A stretch of 33,095 nucleotides of DNA. It comes from Deltaproteobacteria bacterium (GTDB taxonomy: Bacteria > Myxococcota_A > UBA9160 > SMWR01). The number at the start of each line of letters is the position of its first letter. Position 1 is the stretch's first letter. A program made the position numbers and the translations under genes. The notes under the pieces are model-generated. The model was given only the letters and a program-made list of their open reading frames with translations. It made no database searches and was not told the DNA's origin. The stretch covers positions 1 to 33,095 of the forward strand of contig JAFDBP010000013.1 of assembly GCA_019313245.1 (NCBI GenBank), in the 5' to 3' direction. Below, piece after piece: positions 7,973 to 25,938 of this stretch.

Positions 7973-8986
7973 TCAGACCGACGCGGTGTCGAGGCGCAGG
8001 GCGCCGTCGCCCGCACGCGCGAGGCCGATCCGGTATTGGGAGCGGAATCCGAGTTCTTCGGCCGCGCGGTCGGTGTCGAGCGTGAAGCCGTAGCGCAGGT
8101 GCACTCCGCCACTGGCTCCGAGGCGAGATTCGATGCCGAGCACCCGCTCGGTTGCGTCGAGCATGCCGAGCAGTGGACCGGGCACGGGGATGCTCGTGTG
8201 GCCCGTCCAGCGAGAGAGGAGGGAAAGCGGGATCGCCTCTCCACCCGCGATGTTGAAGATTCCCGAAACCGGAGCCCGGGTCGCGGCCCGAACCGCGCGC
8301 GCGACGTCCTTGTCGGAAACGAGCGCGCAGATGGGATCGAATCCGAGGGCCCGCACCCGCGAGCCCGGCCGCCCGGCCAGCGAAGGGTGGAGGTAGACAT
8401 AGCCGCCCGCCGCCACGACGGTGGGAACGCGAAGCAACACCACGCGGAGTCGGTCGTTGTGGACTTCGCTGTGGAAGATCATGTCGCTGTCGATCCAAGC
8501 GCGGACCTCCGGCATCACGTTCGGATCGAGGTTGAGCTCGCTCTCTTCGCTGAGGTGGTTCGCGTTGCCCGGGGGGAGGCGGTAGACGAACGCGCTCCCG
8601 ATCGCGATCAGGTGCTGGATCGTGCGGGTCTCGAGGCAGTGCTGAAGCAGCAGGCGGCTCTCGGCGGTTCGCTCGGAAATGCCACCGACCAGCGGTTCGT
8701 TCAGCGACGAACCCGCACCGTGGCGAGGCACGTAGACGACGGTGTCGATCTCGGCGGCGCGAAACCCAGCGGAGTGAAACAGGTCGTGCACCGGGCGGTG
8801 TTTAGCGAGATCGAGTCGCGTGTAGGTCACCCGCGGTTCGCTGCCCGCGAGATAGGGGTCGAACTTGCGCGGCGGCGGACCGCTGCCGATTGCGAAGATG
8901 ACCTCGACGTTCGGGTCGTGGTAGAGATTCTTGACCACTCTGCGTCCGATTGGTTCGTCGGCGTGGGTGACGAGTACGTGGGTCAT
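7973..8986 (-). CDS. Degenerate SDR / NAD-dependent epimerase-like protein (337 aa), module A
   Basis: Extended short-chain dehydrogenase/reductase fold, third gene of a ParA-acyltransferase-SDR operon. The ATG at 8986 overlaps the upstream acyltransferase stop (ATGA). The overall SDR layout is kept (VTYTRLDLAKHRPVHDLF; IAIGSAFVYR; FNIAGGEAIPLS), but the glycine-rich loop reads VTHADEPIG instead of a TGxxGxxG pattern, and the catalytic YxxxK position reads MPEVR (158-162). Both cofactor-binding and catalytic signatures therefore look lost. It may bind a nucleotide-sugar, lipid or protein without redox chemistry. The second SDR in the window (14674-15591) keeps the glycine loop but also has PEIR in place of the catalytic lysine. 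The N-terminal 59 residues of the track ORF are antisense or out-of-frame extension and are excluded. Confidence 0.82.
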   Translation of the reverse strand: MTHVLVTHADEPIGRRVVKNLYHDPNVEVIFAIGSGPPPRKFDPYLAGSEPRVTYTRLDLAKHRPVHDLFHSAGFRAAEIDTVVYVPRHGAGSSLNEPLVGGISERTAESRLLLQHCLETRTIQHLIAIGSAFVYRLPPGNANHLSEESELNLDPNVMPEVRAWIDSDMIFHSEVHNDRLRVVLLRVPTVVAAGGYVYLHPSLAGRPGSRVRALGFDPICALVSDKDVARAVRAATRAPVSGIFNIAGGEAIPLSLLSRWTGHTSIPVPGPLLGMLDATERVLGIESRLGASGGVHLRYGFTLDTDRAAEELGFRSQYRIGLARAGDGALRLDTASV

Positions 8987-10167
8987 TGGCGATTCCGATC
9001 GATCATCAGTTGCACCGTGCGCCGCACCTGGTTGGCCAGGTAACGGACCAGCCGTGGATCGTCCGCTCCCTCGGGCCCGAAACGCTCGTGGTAGCGGAGG
9101 GGCTCGCCGTAAACGATTCGATACGAGACCGGATAGGGGAGAATGCCGAGCGGGCCGAGCCACGGAAATGTCGGGGTGATCGGCGCGACCGGGATGCCGA
9201 GCTTGCGCGCCAGCGGCTTGATGTCGAAGAGGATCGGCGTTTGATCGTCGCTGCCGATGAATGCCACCGGAATGATCGGCGCGCGCGAGCGCAATGCCTG
9301 TTCGATGAAGCCCACGCGAAATTCCTGGAGCCGATAGCGGTGCGCGATCGTCTTGCGCATCCCCTCGATGCCTTCCGGGAAAACCAGCAGGAGTTGTCCA
9401 TCCCGGAGCAACTTGTCGAAGTTCTCGCGCGTTCCGATGACCTGTCCGGCTCGCGCGTAGAAGAGGTTTACCCAGGGAAGTGTGCCTGCCCAGCGATCCA
9501 CTACGGTCCGGATGAGTCGGGGGGGATCCGTGTGCAGCGCCCCGTCGATGACCGCCATGGCGGCGTCGAAGGGAAGCAGGCCGCCGTGATTGCCCGCGAG
9601 CACTGCGGGGCCCTCGTGCGGAATGTGCTCGTGACCCTCGCTGCGCACGCGGAAGTAGTATTGGTAGAGAGTGCGCATCACCAAGAACGTGCTCTTCATC
9701 ACCTCTGGCGAATAACCGAATCGATCGTAGGGCGCCTCGCCTTCGACGAGATGCGCGAGAGAGGCGAGCACCCGCCTCTCGTCCGAACTCAGCAGGCGAT
9801 CGATCAGACCCTTTGGCGGCGGGAGTTCGATTTCCGCGAGCGGCGGGGTGGTCGACCAGCGCCGTCGGATGAGCCGCGCGAGGTTGTCGGGCTTCGGAGC
9901 ATCCGCGTCGGCCGCGGGATCCGCTTGCCGCGCCGTCGATCGGGGGGCAGTCGCCGGCGCTGCTGCCCGCACGCTCCTGTGGGCGCGCCGAGCGCGCGGC
10001 CGATCCATCGGCCTGCGGCTTTCTCGCGTTTCCAATTGCTCGAGCGCCTCATCCAGCGGGTCGGAGGAGGCGACATCGTCGAAAGGGTCACGGCCCAGAG
10101 CGCGGCCGGGCGCTACGAGCGCGTTCGGAGTTTCTGCGACGGGCTGGGGGGATTCGATTTCGCTCAC
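8983..10167 (-). CDS. LPLAT/PlsC-like acyltransferase with basic disordered N-terminal tail (394 aa), module A
   Basis: Glycerolipid-type acyltransferase, MGAT-like LPLAT group. The catalytic block is AGNHGGLLPFD (His194, Asp201), followed by GTREN, the FPEG motif (263-266) and the family segment PITPTFPWLGPLG. It probably transfers an acyl chain from acyl-CoA or acyl-ACP to a lipid or related acceptor at the membrane. Residues 1 to about 100 are unlike an enzyme domain: proline-, alanine- and arginine-rich, with the very basic patch RESRRPMDRPRARRAHRSVR. The GTG start at 10167 overlaps the ParA stop (GTGA) and the 3' end overlaps the SDR start, so all three are translationally coupled. The track's 105-residue extension is antisense to the real ParA gene. 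A paralogous enzyme lies at 15595-16479. Confidence 0.88.
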   Translation of the reverse strand: MSEIESPQPVAETPNALVAPGRALGRDPFDDVASSDPLDEALEQLETRESRRPMDRPRARRAHRSVRAAAPATAPRSTARQADPAADADAPKPDNLARLIRRRWSTTPPLAEIELPPPKGLIDRLLSSDERRVLASLAHLVEGEAPYDRFGYSPEVMKSTFLVMRTLYQYYFRVRSEGHEHIPHEGPAVLAGNHGGLLPFDAAMAVIDGALHTDPPRLIRTVVDRWAGTLPWVNLFYARAGQVIGTRENFDKLLRDGQLLLVFPEGIEGMRKTIAHRYRLQEFRVGFIEQALRSRAPIIPVAFIGSDDQTPILFDIKPLARKLGIPVAPITPTFPWLGPLGILPYPVSYRIVYGEPLRYHERFGPEGADDPRLVRYLANQVRRTVQLMIDRNRQ

Positions 10168-11027
10168 GGGGGACTCCCATCGTGTCGGGGTTTTCCGCGC
10201 AGCTCGAGTTCTTCGGCGAGTTCTGCCATCGCGAAGGCCGCGCGATCCTTTGGCGCGTATTCGAAGATGGAAAGTCCCCTGGATTGCGCCTCGTCGATCT
10301 TCACGTGATAACGGATGACGCTGTGAGAAATTTCCTTCGAGAAGCGCCGCTTGAGTCGATCGAGAATCTCGTCTGCGAGTTTGGTTCGCCGGTAGAAGGT
10401 CGGCACGATCATCGCAATGTGCAGATCCGGGTGGTCGTAGCGCTCGCGAACCGTATCGATCGTGCGCACGAGCGCCGCGCAACCGTCCAGCGCGAGGTAG
10501 GTCAGCGGGACCGGGATCACGACTTCCGTGGCCGCGCGCAGGATGTTGAGGGTCAGCGATCCAAACGACGGCGGCGCGTCGAAGAGGATGAAGTCGTAGT
10601 TCCCGATTTCCGACGCAGCTTCCAGCTTGCGTCTCAACCGCCCGGTCGGATCCGGATCGCCGTCTTCGAAGGCCGGAAACAAGCCCAGGGATTTGTTGGC
10701 GGTGATCACGTCGAGCTGCGGGATGCGCGTGGTCGTGATCGGAAGATTCGCGGTGGCGCGAGGCTCGCGCTCGGCGGCGTTCTCGTAGCGGCCATCCAGC
10801 GAAGCGGCGTCGAGCAGCACCGAATCGAGCAGCAGGTTGATCGCCGAACGGCGCCGCGCGCGCGTTTCGACGCCCAGCACCTTGCCGAGCTGGCCCTGGG
10901 GATCCATGTCGATGGCGAGAACGCGTCGGCCGCGATGGAGGGCCAGGTACGATCCAATCGTCGAGACGAGCGTCGTTTTGGCGCTACCGCCCTTCTCGTT
11001 GATGATCGCGACCCGCCGAGCGAGCAC
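10164..11027 (-). CDS. Orphan ParA/MinD-family ATPase (287 aa)
   Basis: Deviant Walker A ATPase: KGGSAKTT (12-19), Walker A' region AIDMDPQGQ (38-46) and Walker B FILFDAPPSF (about 146-155). The closest family is ParA/Soj partition ATPases, which move cargo along the nucleoid or membrane by ATP-driven patterning. No parB, parS-like repeats or plasmid genes are nearby, so chromosome partition is unlikely. The GTG start at 11027 has AAGGGGAGAG upstream. The stop overlaps the acyltransferase start. By analogy with McdA or PpfA systems, the co-encoded protein with a basic tail could be its cargo adaptor; this is inference only. Confidence 0.9.
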   Translation of the reverse strand: MLARRVAIINEKGGSAKTTLVSTIGSYLALHRGRRVLAIDMDPQGQLGKVLGVETRARRRSAINLLLDSVLLDAASLDGRYENAAEREPRATANLPITTTRIPQLDVITANKSLGLFPAFEDGDPDPTGRLRRKLEAASEIGNYDFILFDAPPSFGSLTLNILRAATEVVIPVPLTYLALDGCAALVRTIDTVRERYDHPDLHIAMIVPTFYRRTKLADEILDRLKRRFSKEISHSVIRYHVKIDEAQSRGLSIFEYAPKDRAAFAMAELAEELELRGKPRHDGSPP

Positions 11028-11239: not shown

Positions 11240-12211
11240 CTACCCCTTCGCCTCCTGGATCGCCTTGGTCAGGGCGGGAACGATTTCGGCGAGGTCGCCG
11301 ACGGCTCCGAGGTCGGCGACCTCGAAGATCGGCGCGTCCGGGTCCTTGTTGATCGCGATGATGAAATTCGAACCCTTCATGCCCACGAGGTGCTGGATCG
11401 CCCCCGAGATCCCCGCGGCGATGTAGAGCTTCGGGGCCACGATCTGACCGGAGGAGCCCACCTGATATTCGTGGGGCAGCCAACCGGCGTCGACGACGGG
11501 GCGCGAGGCGCCCATCGCACCGCCCAGCGCGTCCGCGAGGGGCTGGAGGATCTCGCCGAAATTCTCCGCGGCGCCGACACCTCGGCCGCCGGCGACGATG
11601 ACGTCGGCCTTGCTCAGGTCGACGCCCTTGCTTTCGGCGATCTTGTTCTCGATGAACTTCGCCTTTTCGGACGTCAGCGAGACGTCGAGTTTGACGACGC
11701 TGCCCTCAGTGCTGCCGCCGAATGGCTCGATGCCCCCGGGCTGCATGGTCGCGACGACGACATCCGAATTGGTGCGGACGTGCGCGTCGAGTCTGCCGCT
11801 GAAGACGCGCCGTTCGAAGACGAGTTTGCCCCCATCCTCGGAAACGTCGGAACAGTCGCTCACGAAGCCGGCATCGAGTCCGGCGGCGATGCGCGGGGCG
11901 ACGTCCCAGCCGCTCGGCGTGTTGGAGAGCAGGATCACGTCGGCCCCCGAGGCCTCGACGGCCGCGCGGATTGCCGCGCTCGCGCTCTCTACGCAGTAGT
12001 TGGCCAGGAGTTCGTCGTCGGCGACGAATACCTTGCCTCCGCCCTTCTGCGCGAAGGCCTCCGCGGCGCCGGCGACGTCCTTGCCGAGCACGACGCTCGC
12101 GACATCGCGTCCGGTCGCGGCTGCGATCTTCTGTGCGTAGGCGGCCAGCTCGTAGCTGCACTCGCGAATCTGACCCGCTTGAATTTCTGCGACGATGAGA
12201 ATGCTGCCCAT
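11240..12211 (-). CDS. etfA: Electron transfer flavoprotein alpha subunit
   Basis: FAD-binding subunit of the soluble ETF heterodimer, which accepts electrons from acyl-CoA dehydrogenases and hands them to ETF:quinone oxidoreductase. The 323-aa length is typical. The N-terminal domain starts [13 protein letters not shown]. The C-terminal FAD domain shows the diagnostic [20 protein letters not shown], followed by [22 protein letters not shown]. The start ATG at 12211 has CAGGGAG upstream. It lies 77 nt downstream of etfB on the same strand, the usual order. Neighbouring B12-dependent acyl-CoA mutase genes fit an organism that degrades acyl-CoA compounds, although they are in a separate operon. 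Confidence 0.97.
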
Positions 12212-12288: not shown

Positions 12289-13071
12289 TTAGAGAAGCCC
12301 CAGTTCCTTGATCTTGCCCGCCAGGCTGTTCGCCATGTCGCCGACGGAGCCGGTGACCATTTCAGCAGCCGAGCCCTTTTGCGGGATGCTGACCTTCTCG
12401 ACTGAAATCTTGGCGTTGGCGGCGCCCACCTGACCCGACAATCCGAGATCCGCGATCGTCTTGACGTCGAGGGGCTTCTTCTTCGCGGCCATGATCCCCT
12501 TGAGGGATGCGTAGCGAACCTGGTTGAGTCCGGTCTGCACGGCAATGACGCACGGTTTCTGCAGTTCCACGACCTCGCGCGCCCCGCCTTCGATTTCGCG
12601 CTCCACCGTCACGCCGCCATTCGAGCTGTCGATCTTCTGCGCGGCCGAGGTGTGGGGCATGCCCAGGAGTTCGGCGAGCATCATCGGCACCGCCGCGAAA
12701 TTGCCGTCGTCGGCCATCAGACCCGCGTAGATCAGGTCCGGGTTCTCTTCCTTCGCGACGGCCGCGAGGATCTTGGCAATGCCGAGCGAGTCGGAACCAT
12801 CGGCCTCGGCGTCCTTGACGTGGATGGCGCGATCCGCGCCCATCCCGAGGGCGGTTCGCAGGGCCTGGGTGACGCGATCCGGCCCGATCGAAACCACGAC
12901 CACCTCACACTCGCCCGCGTCCTTGGCCTGCAGGGCCTCTTCGAGCGCGTAGGTGTCGTAGCTGTTGATTTCGAACTTGAGGCCGTCCTCCTTGATCCAG
13001 GTGCCGTCCGAGCTGATCTCGAGGCGCGCATCCTGGTGGGGAATCTGCTTGATGCAAACCATGATCTTCAT
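12289..13071 (-). CDS. etfB: Electron transfer flavoprotein beta subunit
   Basis: AMP-binding partner of EtfA; 260 aa, normal length. It begins MKIMVCIKQIPHQDARLEI and carries NSYDTYALEEAL and GPDRVTQALRTALGMGADRAIHV, both characteristic of the beta subunit. The late segment VQTGLNQVRYASLKGIMAAKKKPL contains the EtfB signature region. The start ATG at 13071 has GGAG 7 nt upstream. First gene of an etfB-etfA operon, with a divergent cupredoxin-like gene on the other side of a 233-nt gap that must hold its promoter. Confidence 0.97.
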   Translation of the reverse strand: MKIMVCIKQIPHQDARLEISSDGTWIKEDGLKFEINSYDTYALEEALQAKDAGECEVVVVSIGPDRVTQALRTALGMGADRAIHVKDAEADGSDSLGIAKILAAVAKEENPDLIYAGLMADDGNFAAVPMMLAELLGMPHTSAAQKIDSSNGGVTVEREIEGGAREVVELQKPCVIAVQTGLNQVRYASLKGIMAAKKKPLDVKTIADLGLSGQVGAANAKISVEKVSIPQKGSAAEMVTGSVGDMANSLAGKIKELGLL

Positions 13072-14568: not shown

Positions 14569-14673
14569 GGAATCCCTCCGGGGAGCGCTACTCTATCCCA
14601 ATACGGTCGAGACGGGGAGGGGTTGACACACCTCAGTAGCACAGCGCCGATGCCGCAAGCCCTTGGAGTACAA

Positions 14674-15591
14674 ATGAAAAAGGTGTTGATCACGGGAATC
14701 GCGGGAGGTCAGGGGCGGCTCCTGACCCGGCGCCTCAACGAGCGTTTCGCGGTTTGCGGTGTCGATCGGGCCCGGTGGGAGGGGCACCCGAGGGGGGTTC
14801 GCCCCTATGTGGTCGATTTGCGAAAGAAGAAATTCGCAGACGTGGTGCGCCGGGAACGACCCGACTGCGTGGTTCACATGGGTTTCATCCAGGACTTCCG
14901 CACCGATGAGCGCGAGCGGCACGACGTCAATGTGATGGGCACGAAGCGGCTGCTCGATCACTGCATCCGCAACGGCGTGGAGAGCCTGGTCGTGCTCTCG
15001 ACCGGCTACGTCTACGGCGCCCTGCCCGAAAATCCCCACTTCCTGGACGAAGACGCCCCGCTTTCCGCGAGCCGCTCCTATCCGGAAATCCGCGACCGCG
15101 TCGAAGTCGACACCCTGGTGACGACTTTTCTCTGGCGGTACCCGGAGATCCGGACCTGCGTGCTGAGGCCCGTGAACGTGCTCGGCTACTACGCGCAATC
15201 GCTGGTCAAGAACTACCTGCGCGAACGGCGCGTGCCCACCGTGATGGGTTTCGATCCGATGATGCAATTCATCCACGAAGAGGATTTGAGTGCGGCGATC
15301 GAGCTGGTCGTCGACCATCGACTTCAGGGCGTGTTCAACGTCACCGGCCCCGGCGAGGTTCCGCTGCGCACCGCGATTCGCGAAGCGGGCGGCGATCCGT
15401 GGTCGATTCCCGAAGTGATCTTGCGGCCGCTGTCCCGGCGCCTGTTCCGGATGGGTCTGGCCGCCTACCCGCCCGGTGTGATCGACTTCATCAAGTATCC
15501 GATCACGCTCTCGGGCAAGCGCTTCACGGATGCGACGGGCTTTCAACCGCTGTACGGGCTCAAACAGACCCTGCAGAGCGTGCGGAACTGA
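14674..15591 (+). CDS. NAD-dependent epimerase/dehydratase-like SDR (305 aa), module B
   Basis: Extended SDR. MKKVLITGIAGGQGRLL gives an intact glycine loop at the very N-terminus, which favours the ATG at 14674 (TTGGAG 6 nt upstream) over the track's TTG at 14623. A DVNVMGTKRLLDHC helix and VVLSTGYVYG follow. The YxxxK catalytic position reads YPEIR (136-140), so Lys is replaced by Arg, paralleling MPEVR in the module A paralogue. Substrate unknown; nucleotide-sugar or lipid-linked substrates are common in the family. The stop is followed at once by the acyltransferase start, and the two form an operon with a DUF1232 gene. Confidence 0.88.
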   Translation: MKKVLITGIAGGQGRLLTRRLNERFAVCGVDRARWEGHPRGVRPYVVDLRKKKFADVVRRERPDCVVHMGFIQDFRTDERERHDVNVMGTKRLLDHCIRNGVESLVVLSTGYVYGALPENPHFLDEDAPLSASRSYPEIRDRVEVDTLVTTFLWRYPEIRTCVLRPVNVLGYYAQSLVKNYLRERRVPTVMGFDPMMQFIHEEDLSAAIELVVDHRLQGVFNVTGPGEVPLRTAIREAGGDPWSIPEVILRPLSRRLFRMGLAAYPPGVIDFIKYPITLSGKRFTDATGFQPLYGLKQTLQSVRN

Positions 15592-15594
15592 GTG

Positions 15595-16479
15595 ATGGCG
15601 AAATCCGGTGCACTCGATGCGTTGATCGACTTTGCGGGAGCGATGCTGCCGCTGCGGGCCCGCAACCTGCAGACGGTCATCGACGAAAACCTCAGCCGAA
15701 TTCCCAACGAGCTCAACGAGTACGGCTACGACGCGTACGGGATGAGTCCGTACTGGATGCGCCGCGTGCTGATCCCCTTCGCGCTGCTCTACCGCTACTA
15801 TTTTCGCGTCGAGGTCGCGGGCATCGAAAACATGCCCGAAGGGCGCGTGATCGTGATTGCCAACCATGCGGGCCAGCTCCCGTTCGATGCGGCGATGCTG
15901 GGATTGGCGTTGTTGATGGAAGCGCAGCCGCCGAGGATCGCGCGCGGGATGGGGGAGTATTGGATTCCGCAGCTGCCGTGGGTGAGCGTCGTCGCCGCGC
16001 GCACCGGGACGCTGGTGGGAACGCCGCAGAACTGCATTCACCTGCTGGAAAACGGCGAGTGCGTGCTCGCGTTTCCCGAGGGTGTTCGCGGGATGAACAA
16101 GCTCTTCTCGCAACGCTACAAGCTGCAGCGTTTCGGGTCGGGTTTCATGCGCCTGGCGCTCGAAACCGACACGCCGATCGTTCCCGTGGCCATCGTCGGA
16201 TCCGAGGAGCAGCATCCGAGTTTTGCGAATCTGGAGGGCATCGCCCGCATGTTCGGCGCACCCGCGCTGCCGATTACGCCGACGTTTCCGTGGTTCGGGC
16301 CGCTCGGGTTGCTCCCCCTGCCGGTCAAGTACCACATCTACTTCGGCGAACCCCAGCGCTTCGAGGGCGACCCATCCGACGAAGATGCGATCATCGATGC
16401 CAAGGTGGATGAAGTGAAGGCGAAGATCGCGGCTTTGCTCGCGCGCGGGCGTCGAGAGAGAGGGGGGATCTTCAGTTGA
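15595..16479 (+). CDS. LPLAT/PlsC-like acyltransferase (294 aa), module B
   Basis: Paralogue of the module A acyltransferase without the long N-terminal tail. It has IANHAGQLPFD (His91, Asp98), GTPQN, AFPEG (159-163) and PITPTFPWFGPLG. RYYFRV, PFDAAM and FGEP are also shared with the paralogue. It is expected to acylate a lipid or lipid-like acceptor on the cytoplasmic face of the membrane. The start could be GTG 15592 or ATG 15595, directly after the SDR stop at 15591. Its TGA overlaps the TTG start of the DUF1232 gene (TTGA). The SDR, acyltransferase and DUF1232 genes are therefore one transcription and probably translation unit. Confidence 0.9.
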   Translation: MAKSGALDALIDFAGAMLPLRARNLQTVIDENLSRIPNELNEYGYDAYGMSPYWMRRVLIPFALLYRYYFRVEVAGIENMPEGRVIVIANHAGQLPFDAAMLGLALLMEAQPPRIARGMGEYWIPQLPWVSVVAARTGTLVGTPQNCIHLLENGECVLAFPEGVRGMNKLFSQRYKLQRFGSGFMRLALETDTPIVPVAIVGSEEQHPSFANLEGIARMFGAPALPITPTFPWFGPLGLLPLPVKYHIYFGEPQRFEGDPSDEDAIIDAKVDEVKAKIAALLARGRRERGGIFS

Positions 16480-22078: not shown

Positions 22079-25009
22079 TCAAGCGAGCAGCGAGAGCAGG
22101 TCTTCCCGTGTGAGCGCGCCCGCTGCGGTGCCCAGGGCCGCTTCACTCAACGCGCGCTTCTTCTGCTGAAGCGCCAGGATGCGCTCCTCGACGGTCTCTT
22201 CCGCGACCAGTCGGTACACCATCACCGGTCGATTCTGGCCGATGCGGTGCGCGCGGTCGGCGGCCTGGTCTTCTGCGGCCGGATTCCACCAGGGGTCGAG
22301 GATGAATACGTGATCCGCGGCGGTGAGGTTGAGCCCGAGGCCGCCCGCCTTGAGGGAGGCCAGCAGAACCGGCGGCCCCTCCGGATCCTGGAATTCTTGC
22401 ACCACGCTCGAGCGGTCTCGGGTCGTGCCATCGAGTCGGGTGTAGGAGACTTCGACGCGGTCGAGGTGCGGCTCCACCAGGTCGAGTAGCGAGGTCCATT
22501 GGGAGAAGACCAGCGCCTTGTGCCCTTCCGCGAGCACCTCGTCGAGAAACTCGAGCAGCAACTCGATCTTGGAGGAAGTCTTTGCGGTCTGGCCCGGCAC
22601 GAGTGCCGTGTGGCAAGCCGCTTGTCGCAGGCGGAGCAGGACTTCGAGGGCCTGCATGACGTTCGCACCCGACGACAGCTGGGCGACCACGTTTTCGAGC
22701 GCCGCCGCGCGGATGGCGTCGTAGGTGTTGCGTTCGCTCTCGGTGAGCGTCGTGTGGAGCACGATATCCGTGCGCGGCGGCAGCTCGGGTGCGACCTCGC
22801 TCTTGAGCCGGCGAAGCACGAACGGGCGGATCCTGTCGCGCAGGCGCGCTGCAATCTGGGGATCGCCCGCATCGATGGGTTTTGCGTAACGCTCCTCGAA
22901 GTCGCGCCGCGATCCCAGCAGCCCGCGATTGATGAAGTGAAACTGGCTCCAGAGTTCGTCGAGCCGATTTTCGACGGGCGTGCCGCTCAGCGTCATGCGG
23001 AAGTCGCCCCGCAATCGATAGGCGGCCCGCGTGACCTTGCTGTCGGGATTCTTGATGGCCTGGGCTTCGTCGAGAATCAGCGTGTCCCAGTATTCGGCGG
23101 CGAGCTTGTCGGCATCGATGCGCAAGATTGCATACGTGGTCAGGGTGACGTCGCGCTTCGCGTCCAGTCGTCGGCCCGGACCGTGGTAGACGTTGTAGCT
23201 GAGGCCGGGCCGAAAGCGCGCGATCTCGTCGGCCCAGTTGTGGAGCACGCTGGTGGGCGCGATCACGAGCGTCCGCCCGCGCAGCCCGCACAGGGCTTGC
23301 ACGGTCTTGCCGAGCCCCATGTCATCGGCGAGCAGCGCGCCGAGGTTTGCGTCGCGCAGTGCGCAGAGCCAATCGATTCCCGTGACCTGATAGCTTCGGA
23401 GTGTCGCCGTCAGATCCTTCGGTAACTCGGCCGAGGGGATTCCGCCGGCGCTGCTGACGAGGTCTCGCAGGGCATCGAAGGCCGGCGGCGCTGGAACCTC
23501 CATTTCTTCGCAGAGCTTCGCGAGATCCGGCAGCGCAGAGTTCGGCAGTTCGCCCGCAATTTCGCGGGCTGCGAGCAGATCTGCGATCCGATCCCCGAAG
23601 CGGCTCAGCCAATCTTCGGGCAGCGGCGCCATCCCCCCGCCCGCCAGTGGCACCAGTGAAATTCCCTGCTGCCAGGCCGCGAGCACCTGCGACGGGTCGG
23701 CGCTGCGGGCCTGGGCCGGACCGCGAGCCGTCTCGCCGGTGGATTCGAAGTAGACGTCGAGGCCGGCTTCGCCAATTTCGACGCGCGGTTCGACGGCGGG
23801 TGCGAGATAGAAATCTTCGTGCCCCGCCCCCTGGATCTCTCCATCCCAACTCTCGAGTCGGATGGAGAAGTCGACGGCCTCTTGTCCCTTGAGGCGCAAC
23901 TTTCGACCCGGAGCCAGCTCGAGCTCGTTCTGGAGTCGGCGGATCAGCTGTCGCTCGGCAGATTCATCGCGCACGGGCACCTTCCCGCCGATGATCTTCA
24001 GGCGCCCGCTGTCGACTCTGGCGATGATGGGATCTCCATACACTAATGTGGGTAATACGGTGAGCGCGTCGTTTTCCTTCTGCACGGTGAGCAGCAGGCG
24101 CGGCTTTTCCTGAACGGTACGCGGGAGGCGCTTGGTGTCGATCATCACCGGGATTCGTTCCTGCAGCGAGGGCAGGATCTCCGTTACCAGCTCGGATACG
24201 GCGTCGGGGCTGAAGATGCGCCCACGCGTCAGTTGATCGATCTCGCGCCCGGTGAGATTCGTCTCGCCGACGGGCCGCAGGACGTCGCCGCAGAGCACGA
24301 CGCCGTTGTGAAAAACCTCGGTGATCGACGGATCGCGCTCGACGAACAGCCGGAAACAATCGCCGTCGTCGACCACCCTTCCGTGAGGGACGACGCGCTT
24401 CGATGAGGTTCGCACCGGGCGGCCTTCGAGGAGGATGTCGCTCGCCCCCTCGAGCGCCTTCAGCAGGTTTTCCGTGAAGCCCCGCGGTACGAGGCCGTGT
24501 GCGCGCGCTCCGAGAAGTTGCTCGACGGCGAGATCGGCTTCGGTGGCGAGAAAATCGGGACCGTCCACCTGCCCGGAAGCGACTGATGCGAGCGCGACCC
24601 GAAGCGGCGGAGAGTCCCGGCCGGCGACGACCACACGCTCCATGGCGAGGCCCGCGTTCTTTCGGCTGAAGCGATAGCCGATGCGTCCGCGATGGTCGCT
24701 GTTGGTGGGAAGTGGGCGTCCCTCCTTCCGGGCCTTGCGGAGCGCGATCACCGCAGCGGCGACGTGCTCGCAGGGGTTTTCGCGGTCTTGGCAGTCGCAT
24801 TCCCAATCGTCCTCGCCCAGGTAGAGGGTGACGAGGGGGCAGACGAGGCCGCCGCGAGTCGAGACGCGGATGGTGACTTCCTTGTCGTCGGCGCGTTCGC
24901 CGGTCACGCTGTCGGAGCGCGAGAGTTCCACGCCGCGGGACCACGCGCCCGATGAGCACGCCTCGCGAACGGCTTCGAACAGGGTCTGGACGGATTGCGG
25001 CTTCGCCAT
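22079..25009 (-). CDS. SWIM zinc-finger SNF2-family DNA helicase/ATPase (976 aa)
   Basis: Domain order: an N-terminal SWIM finger [14 protein letters not shown] (Cys71, 73, 80, His82), a long middle region of beta-rich DUF-type sequence, then a two-lobe SNF2 motor. Motor motifs include [11 protein letters not shown] (about 560), LDEAQAIKN (about 645), [42 protein letters not shown] and DRAHRIGQ. The protein translocates on DNA and is expected to remodel protein-DNA complexes or assist transcription and repair. The track start at 25591 is inside MeaB; the ATG at 25009 shares one base with the MeaB stop (TGATG), so translation is coupled. The helicase after a B12 mutase and its chaperone is odd. 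Confidence 0.93.
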
Positions 25010-25938
25010 CAGCGGCTCTTCCCCAGGGCCTCTTCGATCTCGAGGCCGAGTCGCGCCAGCAGCGCGAATGCCGAAACCGAATCGTCTTTGCGCACGCGTT
25101 CGCGAAGTGCGCGTCGGCCGCCGAGTCGTTCGATGCCAAACGCCCCGTAGCGCCGTTCGAGCGCGCCGAGCAGCTGGATCTCGCGGCCGCGCCATCGCCT
25201 TTCTCGCAGCGCGTCGCCGTCGATCAGCCGCTGACGGTGTGCATCCATCGCGCTGACGAGTTCGTCGATCCCTTCGCCCGCGCTCGCGGACGTGAGAATC
25301 ACCGCCGCCTCGCTGGGGGAAGTCCCCCGATCGCCCAGGCTGACGCTGCTCCTGAGTTCGCTCGCGGTGCGCGTCGCCGCGGCTCCGAGGTCGGCTTTGT
25401 TGACGACGAAGACATCCGGGTATTCGAGAATGCCGGCCTTCATGAATTGCAATGCGTCTCCGGTTCCAGGTGTTGCGACATAGACGAGCGTATCTACGAG
25501 TGCTGCCACATCGCTCTCGCTCTGGCCCACGCCGACGGTCTCCACGAAGACGCGATCGAACGCCGCGGCCAGGATTGCGACCGCCGCCCACGCGCTCTCG
25601 GCCAGGCCGCCGAGTTGATCGCGCGCGGCCATCGAGCGAATGAAGACCCCGGGATCGGAGGCGCCCGACCGCACGCGGACGCGATCGCCGAGCAGGGCGC
25701 CGCCCGTGGTGCGGCTCGAGGGGTCGACGGCGACGATCGCGAGCGTCTCTCCCTTCGGCCGCAATTCGCGCACGAGTGCGTCGAGCAGGGTCGACTTCCC
25801 GGCACCTGGTGCGCCCGTCAATCCGATGCGCGGCGCGCCGGGGAAGGGCATCTCCCGCTCGAGCGTGTCGAGGAGTTCGAGCGCCTCTTTGCGGCGGTCG
25901 GCGCGGCGATCGTCGGCGAGATTGAGCGCCTCGGGCAC
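25009..25938 (-). CDS. meaB: MeaB/ArgK-type G-protein chaperone of a B12-dependent mutase
   Basis: SIMIBI-class GTPase that loads adenosylcobalamin into, and protects, the acyl-CoA mutase. P-loop GAPGAGKS (42-49), [33 protein letters not shown] and NKAD are all standard. From GTG 25938 the protein has 309 aa. The reading frame stays open upstream and encodes conserved-looking residues ([14 protein letters not shown]) that fit the normal MeaB N-terminus. The only plausible start for these is a CTG at 25986, with GGAGGAG 7 nt upstream. It directly follows the mutase and is coupled to the SNF2 gene downstream. Confidence 0.94.

Follow-up and report, generated by a model that had tools for sequence, protein, structure and literature searches.

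The stretch of DNA analysed here (the window, 33,095 nucleotides long) corresponds to contig C13 in a draft genome of 3.9 Mb from a Deltaproteobacteria bacterium (308 contigs, 84% complete), and it encodes a ParA-type ATPase, an acyltransferase of the LPLAT family (LPLAT1) and a degenerate SDR-like protein (SDR1). Judged by sequence comparison, and with a probability of about 0.72, the three genes form a dedicated ParA positioning system in which LPLAT1 would replace ParB as the partner of the ATPase and as the adaptor to its cargo. The sequence and the translations bore out the layout given in the initial annotation, i.e., three minus-strand genes in the order ParA-LPLAT-SDR overlapping by 4 nucleotides (Table 1). 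The TGA stop codon of the ParA gene lies inside GTGA, with the GTG start of LPLAT1 at 10167, and the LPLAT1 gene ends at 8983 inside ATGA, with the SDR1 start at 8986. The GTG start of LPLAT1 is supported by the same 4-nucleotide overlap with ParA in 31 of 35 orthologues.

The arrangement was surveyed in 91 genomes of the class, with ParA orthologues accepted at E <= 1e-35 and an identity of at least 55%, and LPLAT1 at E <= 1e-70; these data are mostly metagenome assemblies, and the genome counts are not phylogenetically independent. A ParA orthologue is present in 43 genomes and LPLAT1 in 48, and 42 of the 43 ParA genomes contain both. One genome with ParA only (G130) and two with LPLAT1 only (G165 and G089) have the gene concerned at a contig end, and the other genomes with LPLAT1 only are four members of one genus. 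Wherever the contig allows, ParA and LPLAT1 are adjacent and in the same order, usually followed by SDR1; the three-gene order is kept across the class by proteins that are mostly 50-65% identical, and the closest named record is a metagenome-assembled genome (MAG), 'Deltaproteobacteria bacterium', with a ParA 90% identical. Since the same order recurs across the class and ParA occurs in 43 of 91 genomes, the arrangement is not a matter of chance, and the survey of synteny suggested earlier found the ATPase to be a constant neighbour of the acyltransferase. A concerted loss is seen in one genus, in five genomes: each keeps an LPLAT, a search for the ParA orthologue found none in any of them, the surroundings that were fetched contain neither ParA, SDR1 nor the N-terminal motif described below, and in three of the five the LPLAT gene lies downstream of the ETF alpha gene on the same contig. 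LPLAT-SDR pairs without ParA are common in a wider draw from the phylum; the pair therefore looks like an older unit, to which ParA would have been added later as the component defining the system. The SDR, by the same token, is not specific to the system, because it also accompanies such acyltransferases where there is no ParA.

The ATPase matches AAA_31 (5e-32) and CbiA in Pfam, and its sequence is closest to Soj among solved structures. Across 21 aligned sequences the deviant Walker A motif KGGxxK[ST] is invariant at K12 (the signature lysine), G13, G14, K17 and T18; of the Motif 2 and Walker B positions, D40 and D42 are found in at least 90% of the sequences and D150, P152 and P153 in all. 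The DNA-contact arginine R213, located by alignment to Thermus Soj (1wcv), is conserved. The clade carries the signature NEKGG[ST]xKTT and mostly [KR][IV]DEAQS, as against NQKGGVGKTT and VRLxEAPS in Soj, with QGQ-GK-LG as a further subfamily element. In a tree of 57 sequences a long branch with support of 100/99 sets it apart from the Soj of the same genome and from other ParAs. ParB_N is matched above the cut-off by a single protein of the genome, which adjoins Soj on contig C134, and none lies beside this ParA, in agreement with the earlier description of an ATPase without ParB. The protein is accordingly classified, from signature and tree, as a member of an orphan-ParA clade and not as the chromosomal ParA.

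LPLAT1 has a short motif near its N-terminus. The first approximately 100 residues vary too fast for a good alignment, P28 and F29 being invariant, and residues 1-36 have a pLDDT below 50 in the AlphaFold model. Among 35 LPLATs adjacent to ParA, 30 contain a strict LGx[DN]P[FL] between residues 13 and 45, and in the remaining five DPF is retained while LG has diverged (VRDPF, LGDPF, LGGADPF, PERDPF, DRDPF). After shuffling of their residues, the N-termini give 0.05 hits on average and never more than 2 of 35; the motif is found in none of 27 LPLATs without ParA, LPLAT2 included, the N-termini of these proteins being shorter. After the tag comes a further but weaker element, DP[FL]xxRLxxL, for which the model shows a short helix. 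The genome's own ParB, encoded on the contig with Soj, begins MSNQHKALGRGIGALI, while LPLAT1 carries RALGRDPFDDV; the ParB peptide ALGRGIGALI and the LPLAT1 peptide ALGRDPFDDV have L-G-R in common. The LGxDPF tag is most simply understood as a putative partner peptide for ParA. A second tagged protein was sought in the same genome through 37 DNA-pattern matches, of which 30 were inspected; only LPLAT1 has a clear N-terminal LGxDPF in a gene, and the other inspected matches are internal, antisense or FG variants, together with one oxidoreductase with LGSDPL near its start.

Members of the same ParA clade were identified in other lineages by a ParA profile scan of 84,980 species genomes followed by inspection of the neighbouring genes. 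Tagged LPLATs stand beside the clade ParA in a family that belongs to the phylum but not to the class (L083, LGNDPF), in Abyssobacteria, with the SDR on the other side of ParA (L149, LGSDPF), and in Gemmatimonadetes (L192, LGHDPF). The tag also occurs on a protein of a different kind, CheW, adjacent to the clade ParA in Nitrospinota and one proteobacterial MAG (L151, LGRNPL; L168, IGRNPL; L182, LGKNPL; L198, LGRDPL), while in a Nitrospirae MAG (L169) two tags are seen where the contig ends and CheW is truncated by the contig. It is also worth mentioning that in these five ParA-CheW loci ParA stands directly before CheW, which has an N-terminal LGRNPL...DSIW; they probably represent a pair for the positioning of chemotaxis arrays that differs from ParC/ParP and PpfA. 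As regards the origin of the ParA-LPLAT association, the tree implies several changes of partner type, and with its poorly resolved backbone it fits a single as well as a multiple origin.

LPLAT1 matches PF01553 (2e-14) and consists of the disordered N-terminal extension followed by an acyltransferase domain at approximately residues 145-394. Profiles of LPLAT1 and SDR1 found no match among PDB sequences in the sequence search; the closest solved folds of LPLAT1 are PlsC, GPAT1 and PatA. The motifs NH-G--P-D (N193, H194, D201) and P264-E265-G266 are invariant, with the spacing H-x6-D as against the classical H-x4-D, and because of this invariance LPLAT1 is probably an active acyltransferase. 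SDR1 gives no match in Pfam or NCBIfam; its predicted structure (mean pLDDT 85) matches extended SDRs and epimerases in the PDB, RmlB and GalE among them, with E-values down to 1e-14. The description of this protein as degenerate proved apt: the dinucleotide-binding motif TGxxGxxG reads THADEPIG, with the first two glycines gone, and the YxxxK pair is absent, the tyrosine position not being conserved and the lysine being replaced by arginine. With these two glycines and the catalytic tyrosine and lysine lost, SDR1 is less likely to be a dehydrogenase than a structural companion. In SDR2, encoded elsewhere in the window, the catalytic tyrosine is kept and the lysine is likewise replaced by arginine.

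The mechanism proposed for the locus begins with an ATPase of the ATP-sandwich type that has intact Walker residues and a conserved DNA-contact arginine and that lies outside chromosomal ParA. Its apparently obligate, translationally coupled partner would be LPLAT1, in which the disordered N-terminus offers a single conserved motif, LGxDPF, that tracks with ParA. The N-terminal peptide of ParB suffices for binding to ParA and for stimulation of its ATPase; in M. xanthus it binds the edge of the ParA dimer through hydrophobic residues, and its central arginine or lysine stimulates ATP hydrolysis (PMC12462528). By analogy, the tag may dock at the ParA dimer edge and stimulate hydrolysis. LPLAT1 would be held peripherally on the membrane or on a lipid inclusion, with SDR1 as a non-catalytic companion, and would follow the ParA gradient on the nucleoid, by which the site of lipid acylation, or a lipid body coated by LPLAT1, could be spread within the cell or shared between daughter cells. 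The partnership of ParA and LPLAT1 is itself quite likely, whereas the identity of the cargo as a lipid inclusion or a membrane-bound patch of lipid synthesis is proposed at just short of even odds. The broader proposal, that a portable tag LGx[DN]P[FL] acquired on the N-termini of unrelated proteins (LPLATs, CheW) has redirected this widespread orphan-ParA clade to further cargos, among them lipid synthesis or lipid bodies, is evenly balanced. The acyltransferase had earlier been put forward as the cargo or partner of a ParA without ParB, and this stands in the light of the 42 of 43 co-occurrence, the tracking of the tag with the ATPase and its recurrence on other proteins; the contact had been placed in the acyltransferase tail, and its likely site is instead the disordered N-terminus.

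Several observations weigh against a positioning system of this kind, or against the role given to the tag. Within the class the tag is a post hoc finding: it was first seen on the LPLATs of the class and of L083, and L149, L192 and the CheW loci, examined later, are out-of-sample. It is mildly acidic (DPF, DD), as against the mostly basic known partner peptides, and the position of the second DNA-contact arginine is occupied by lysine in this ParA and by leucine in one family. The tag is moreover not universal, for in L176, L184 and L202 (order SDR-ParA-LPLAT) the LPLAT is untagged, and a different contact with ParA is expected there; one of these loci is labelled Dadabacteria, and the N-terminus of the L184 LPLAT resembles a coiled coil. 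In Myxococcus, Corallococcus, Anaeromyxobacter and their relatives, ParA of this clade is preceded by an untagged, phasin-like coiled-coil protein of 100-120 residues. Both groups of loci show that the clade also takes partners in ways other than through the tag. In the myxobacterial loci a PhaR-type gene (PHB_acc_N-like) lies downstream of ParA on the opposite strand, in convergent orientation; PF07879 was confirmed (E approximately 1e-28 to 1e-26) in three related loci without a recognised phasin-like neighbour, and the PhaR-type sequence motif was seen in the remaining loci of the myxobacterial type. The arrangement of phasin-like protein, ParA and PhaR-type gene was noted in L157, L158, L164 and approximately 30 other loci, that of M. 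xanthus included, and the ParA/phasin-like pair is a candidate for positioning granules or lipid bodies in an organism that serves as a cultured model.

These myxobacterial pairs bear on the question of what is carried. As their lipid counterpart, LPLAT1 could be a DGAT/MGAT-like coat enzyme of neutral-lipid bodies that ParA shares between daughter cells, which is a specific form of the positioning proposal and not exclusive of it. This storage-inclusion form is a real, if minority, prospect: in many Myxococcota the neighbours of the clade ParA are a phasin-like coiled coil and a regulator of the PhaR type (PF07879), the L149 LPLAT has a further Pfam match, to DAGAT, that exceeds the cut-off, and WS/DGAT neutral-lipid synthases occur in 82 of the 91 genomes of the class, in multiple copies in most genomes outside the genus of the window. 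Against it, the WS/DGAT domain was found in none of the four genomes of that genus (G000, G115, G163, G164) and is present in genomes without ParA; droplets made by WS/DGAT are unsupported as the cargo for this genus and show no correlation with ParA. The phasin-like protein, in turn, matches the Pfam Phasin model only below the cut-off. Polyhydroxyalkanoate (PHA) granules are an unlikely cargo in this organism, PhaC being nearly absent from the class: the PHA synthase domain PF07167 was not found in its own genome and was found in 2 of the 91 class genomes and in none of 43 high-quality genomes.

If LPLAT1 were a mere anchor, holding ParA at a site on the membrane and, by way of ParA, the nucleoid or some other object, no lipid chemistry would be positioned at all. 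The tag argues for contact and does not say which side is the cargo, and the other partners of the clade, CheW and the phasin-like protein, have a different biology; yet the invariant NH-G--P-D and PEG motifs indicate that catalytic function is under selection, and the tagged CheW of Nitrospinota is plausibly a cargo by analogy with ParC/ParP (PMC5706961), and a mere anchor is held to be unlikely. Still less probable is that ParA is a regulator or an unrelated hitchhiker in a conserved ETF-ParA-LPLAT-SDR locus. Conservation of the locus order over one class and the existence of the LPLAT-SDR pair without ParA would be compatible with such a neighbourhood effect, but ParA and LPLAT are linked in other phyla and in other gene orders as well (SDR-ParA-LPLAT in L149, L176, L184 and L202), and the tag turns up on unrelated proteins and is missing where there is no ParA. 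A divergent system for plasmid or chromosome partition, in which the LPLAT N-terminus would serve to segregate DNA, has the proximity of this ParA to Soj in its favour and is otherwise hardly credible, as Soj and ParB of this genome are encoded together on a different contig, with the sole ParB_N match over the cut-off, ParA falls outside Soj in the tree, and LPLAT1 has no DNA-binding domain match in Pfam.

Other genes of the window surround the system (Table 1). In a large part of the class the SDR2-LPLAT2 pair, on the opposite strand and in reversed gene order, is conserved near the ParA locus, and LPLAT2 is 41-42% identical to the LPLAT1 domain. Further along, an open reading frame at 22079-25591 encodes an SNF2-type helicase of 1170 residues, a relative of the SCO1167/SCO6262 helicases whose match falls short of the curated cut-off.

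Table 1. Coordinates of the proposed ParA-LPLAT1-SDR1 system and its neighbours in the window.
Feature	Position	Strand	Length, basis and remarks
ParA-type ATPase, orphan subfamily	10164..11027	-	287 aa; Walker/motif alignment, tree
LPLAT1, LPLAT-family acyltransferase	8983..10167	-	394 aa; PF01553, motifs, closest folds
LPLAT1 N-terminal tag LGRDPF, proposed ParA-recognition motif	10081..10098	-	residues 24-29
SDR1, degenerate extended-SDR protein	7973..8986	-	337 aa; fold match, catalytic residues replaced
ETF alpha subunit, conserved neighbour upstream	11240..12211	-	gap of ~210 nt to ParA
ETF beta subunit, conserved neighbour upstream	12289..13071	-	
SDR2, SDR paralogue, NAD-dependent epimerase family	14623..15591	+	no ParA attached
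LPLAT2, acyltransferase paralogue	15592..16479	+	short N-terminus without tag; internal control

The known cargos of ParA-type motors are DNA, carboxysomes, chemoreceptor arrays and divisome proteins. If the proposal is true, a lipid-acylating partner brings lipid metabolism or lipid bodies within the reach of ParA positioning. A tag common to unrelated cargos beside one ParA clade would be a concrete and transferable recognition motif, one that lets many orphan ParAs be assigned a partner from sequence. N-terminal peptides of partners have been proposed as cargo tags (PMC10241942), and the LGxDPF tag makes this idea of a partner-peptide cargo code directly testable. No description of a ParA with an acyltransferase, a phasin or lipid bodies was found in the open-licence papers searched; for the combination of ParA, acyltransferase and pseudo-SDR, or for the tag, the earlier statement that no described system of this kind was known holds within the same literature.

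The proposed system would work like the known ParA-partner positioning systems, with an ATPase of the same superfamily, and is not ParABS, because no ParB lies beside ParA. With ParABS (Soj/Spo0J) it shares a related ATPase, the deviant Walker A, the DNA-contact arginine and a partner whose N-terminal peptide contains A-L-G-R; it differs in having no adjacent ParB or ParB_N, an acyltransferase as the partner and an ATPase in a separate clade. LPLAT-SDR pairs without ParA, such as SDR2-LPLAT2, resemble it in the adjacency of a related acyltransferase and an SDR, and are unlike it in their short untagged N-terminus and, for SDR2-LPLAT2, in the opposite gene order. The ParA of Myxococcus and Anaeromyxobacter, with its phasin-like and PhaR-type neighbours, belongs to the same clade (approximately 37-47% identity) and has a small co-directional partner; that partner, however, is encoded upstream of ParA and is a coiled-coil protein, weakly similar to Phasin, that lacks LGxDPF. 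In the positioning of carboxysomes by McdAB a ParA-type ATPase is likewise combined with a co-encoded partner, and the N-terminal 20 residues of McdB are necessary and sufficient for binding to McdA (PMC12204374); the adaptor considered here is instead a lipid-acylation enzyme with an active site, and its tag is dissimilar to the lysine-bearing McdB helix. In ParC-ParP and PpfA-TlpT a ParA-like ATPase has a CheW-like or receptor partner with an N-terminal interaction region (PMC5706961, PMC9178275), that of ParP connecting chemotaxis arrays to ParC (PMC5706961). An LGxDPF-type tag is present on the CheW beside this ParA clade in Nitrospinota, whereas the tagged protein at the locus described here is an acyltransferase.

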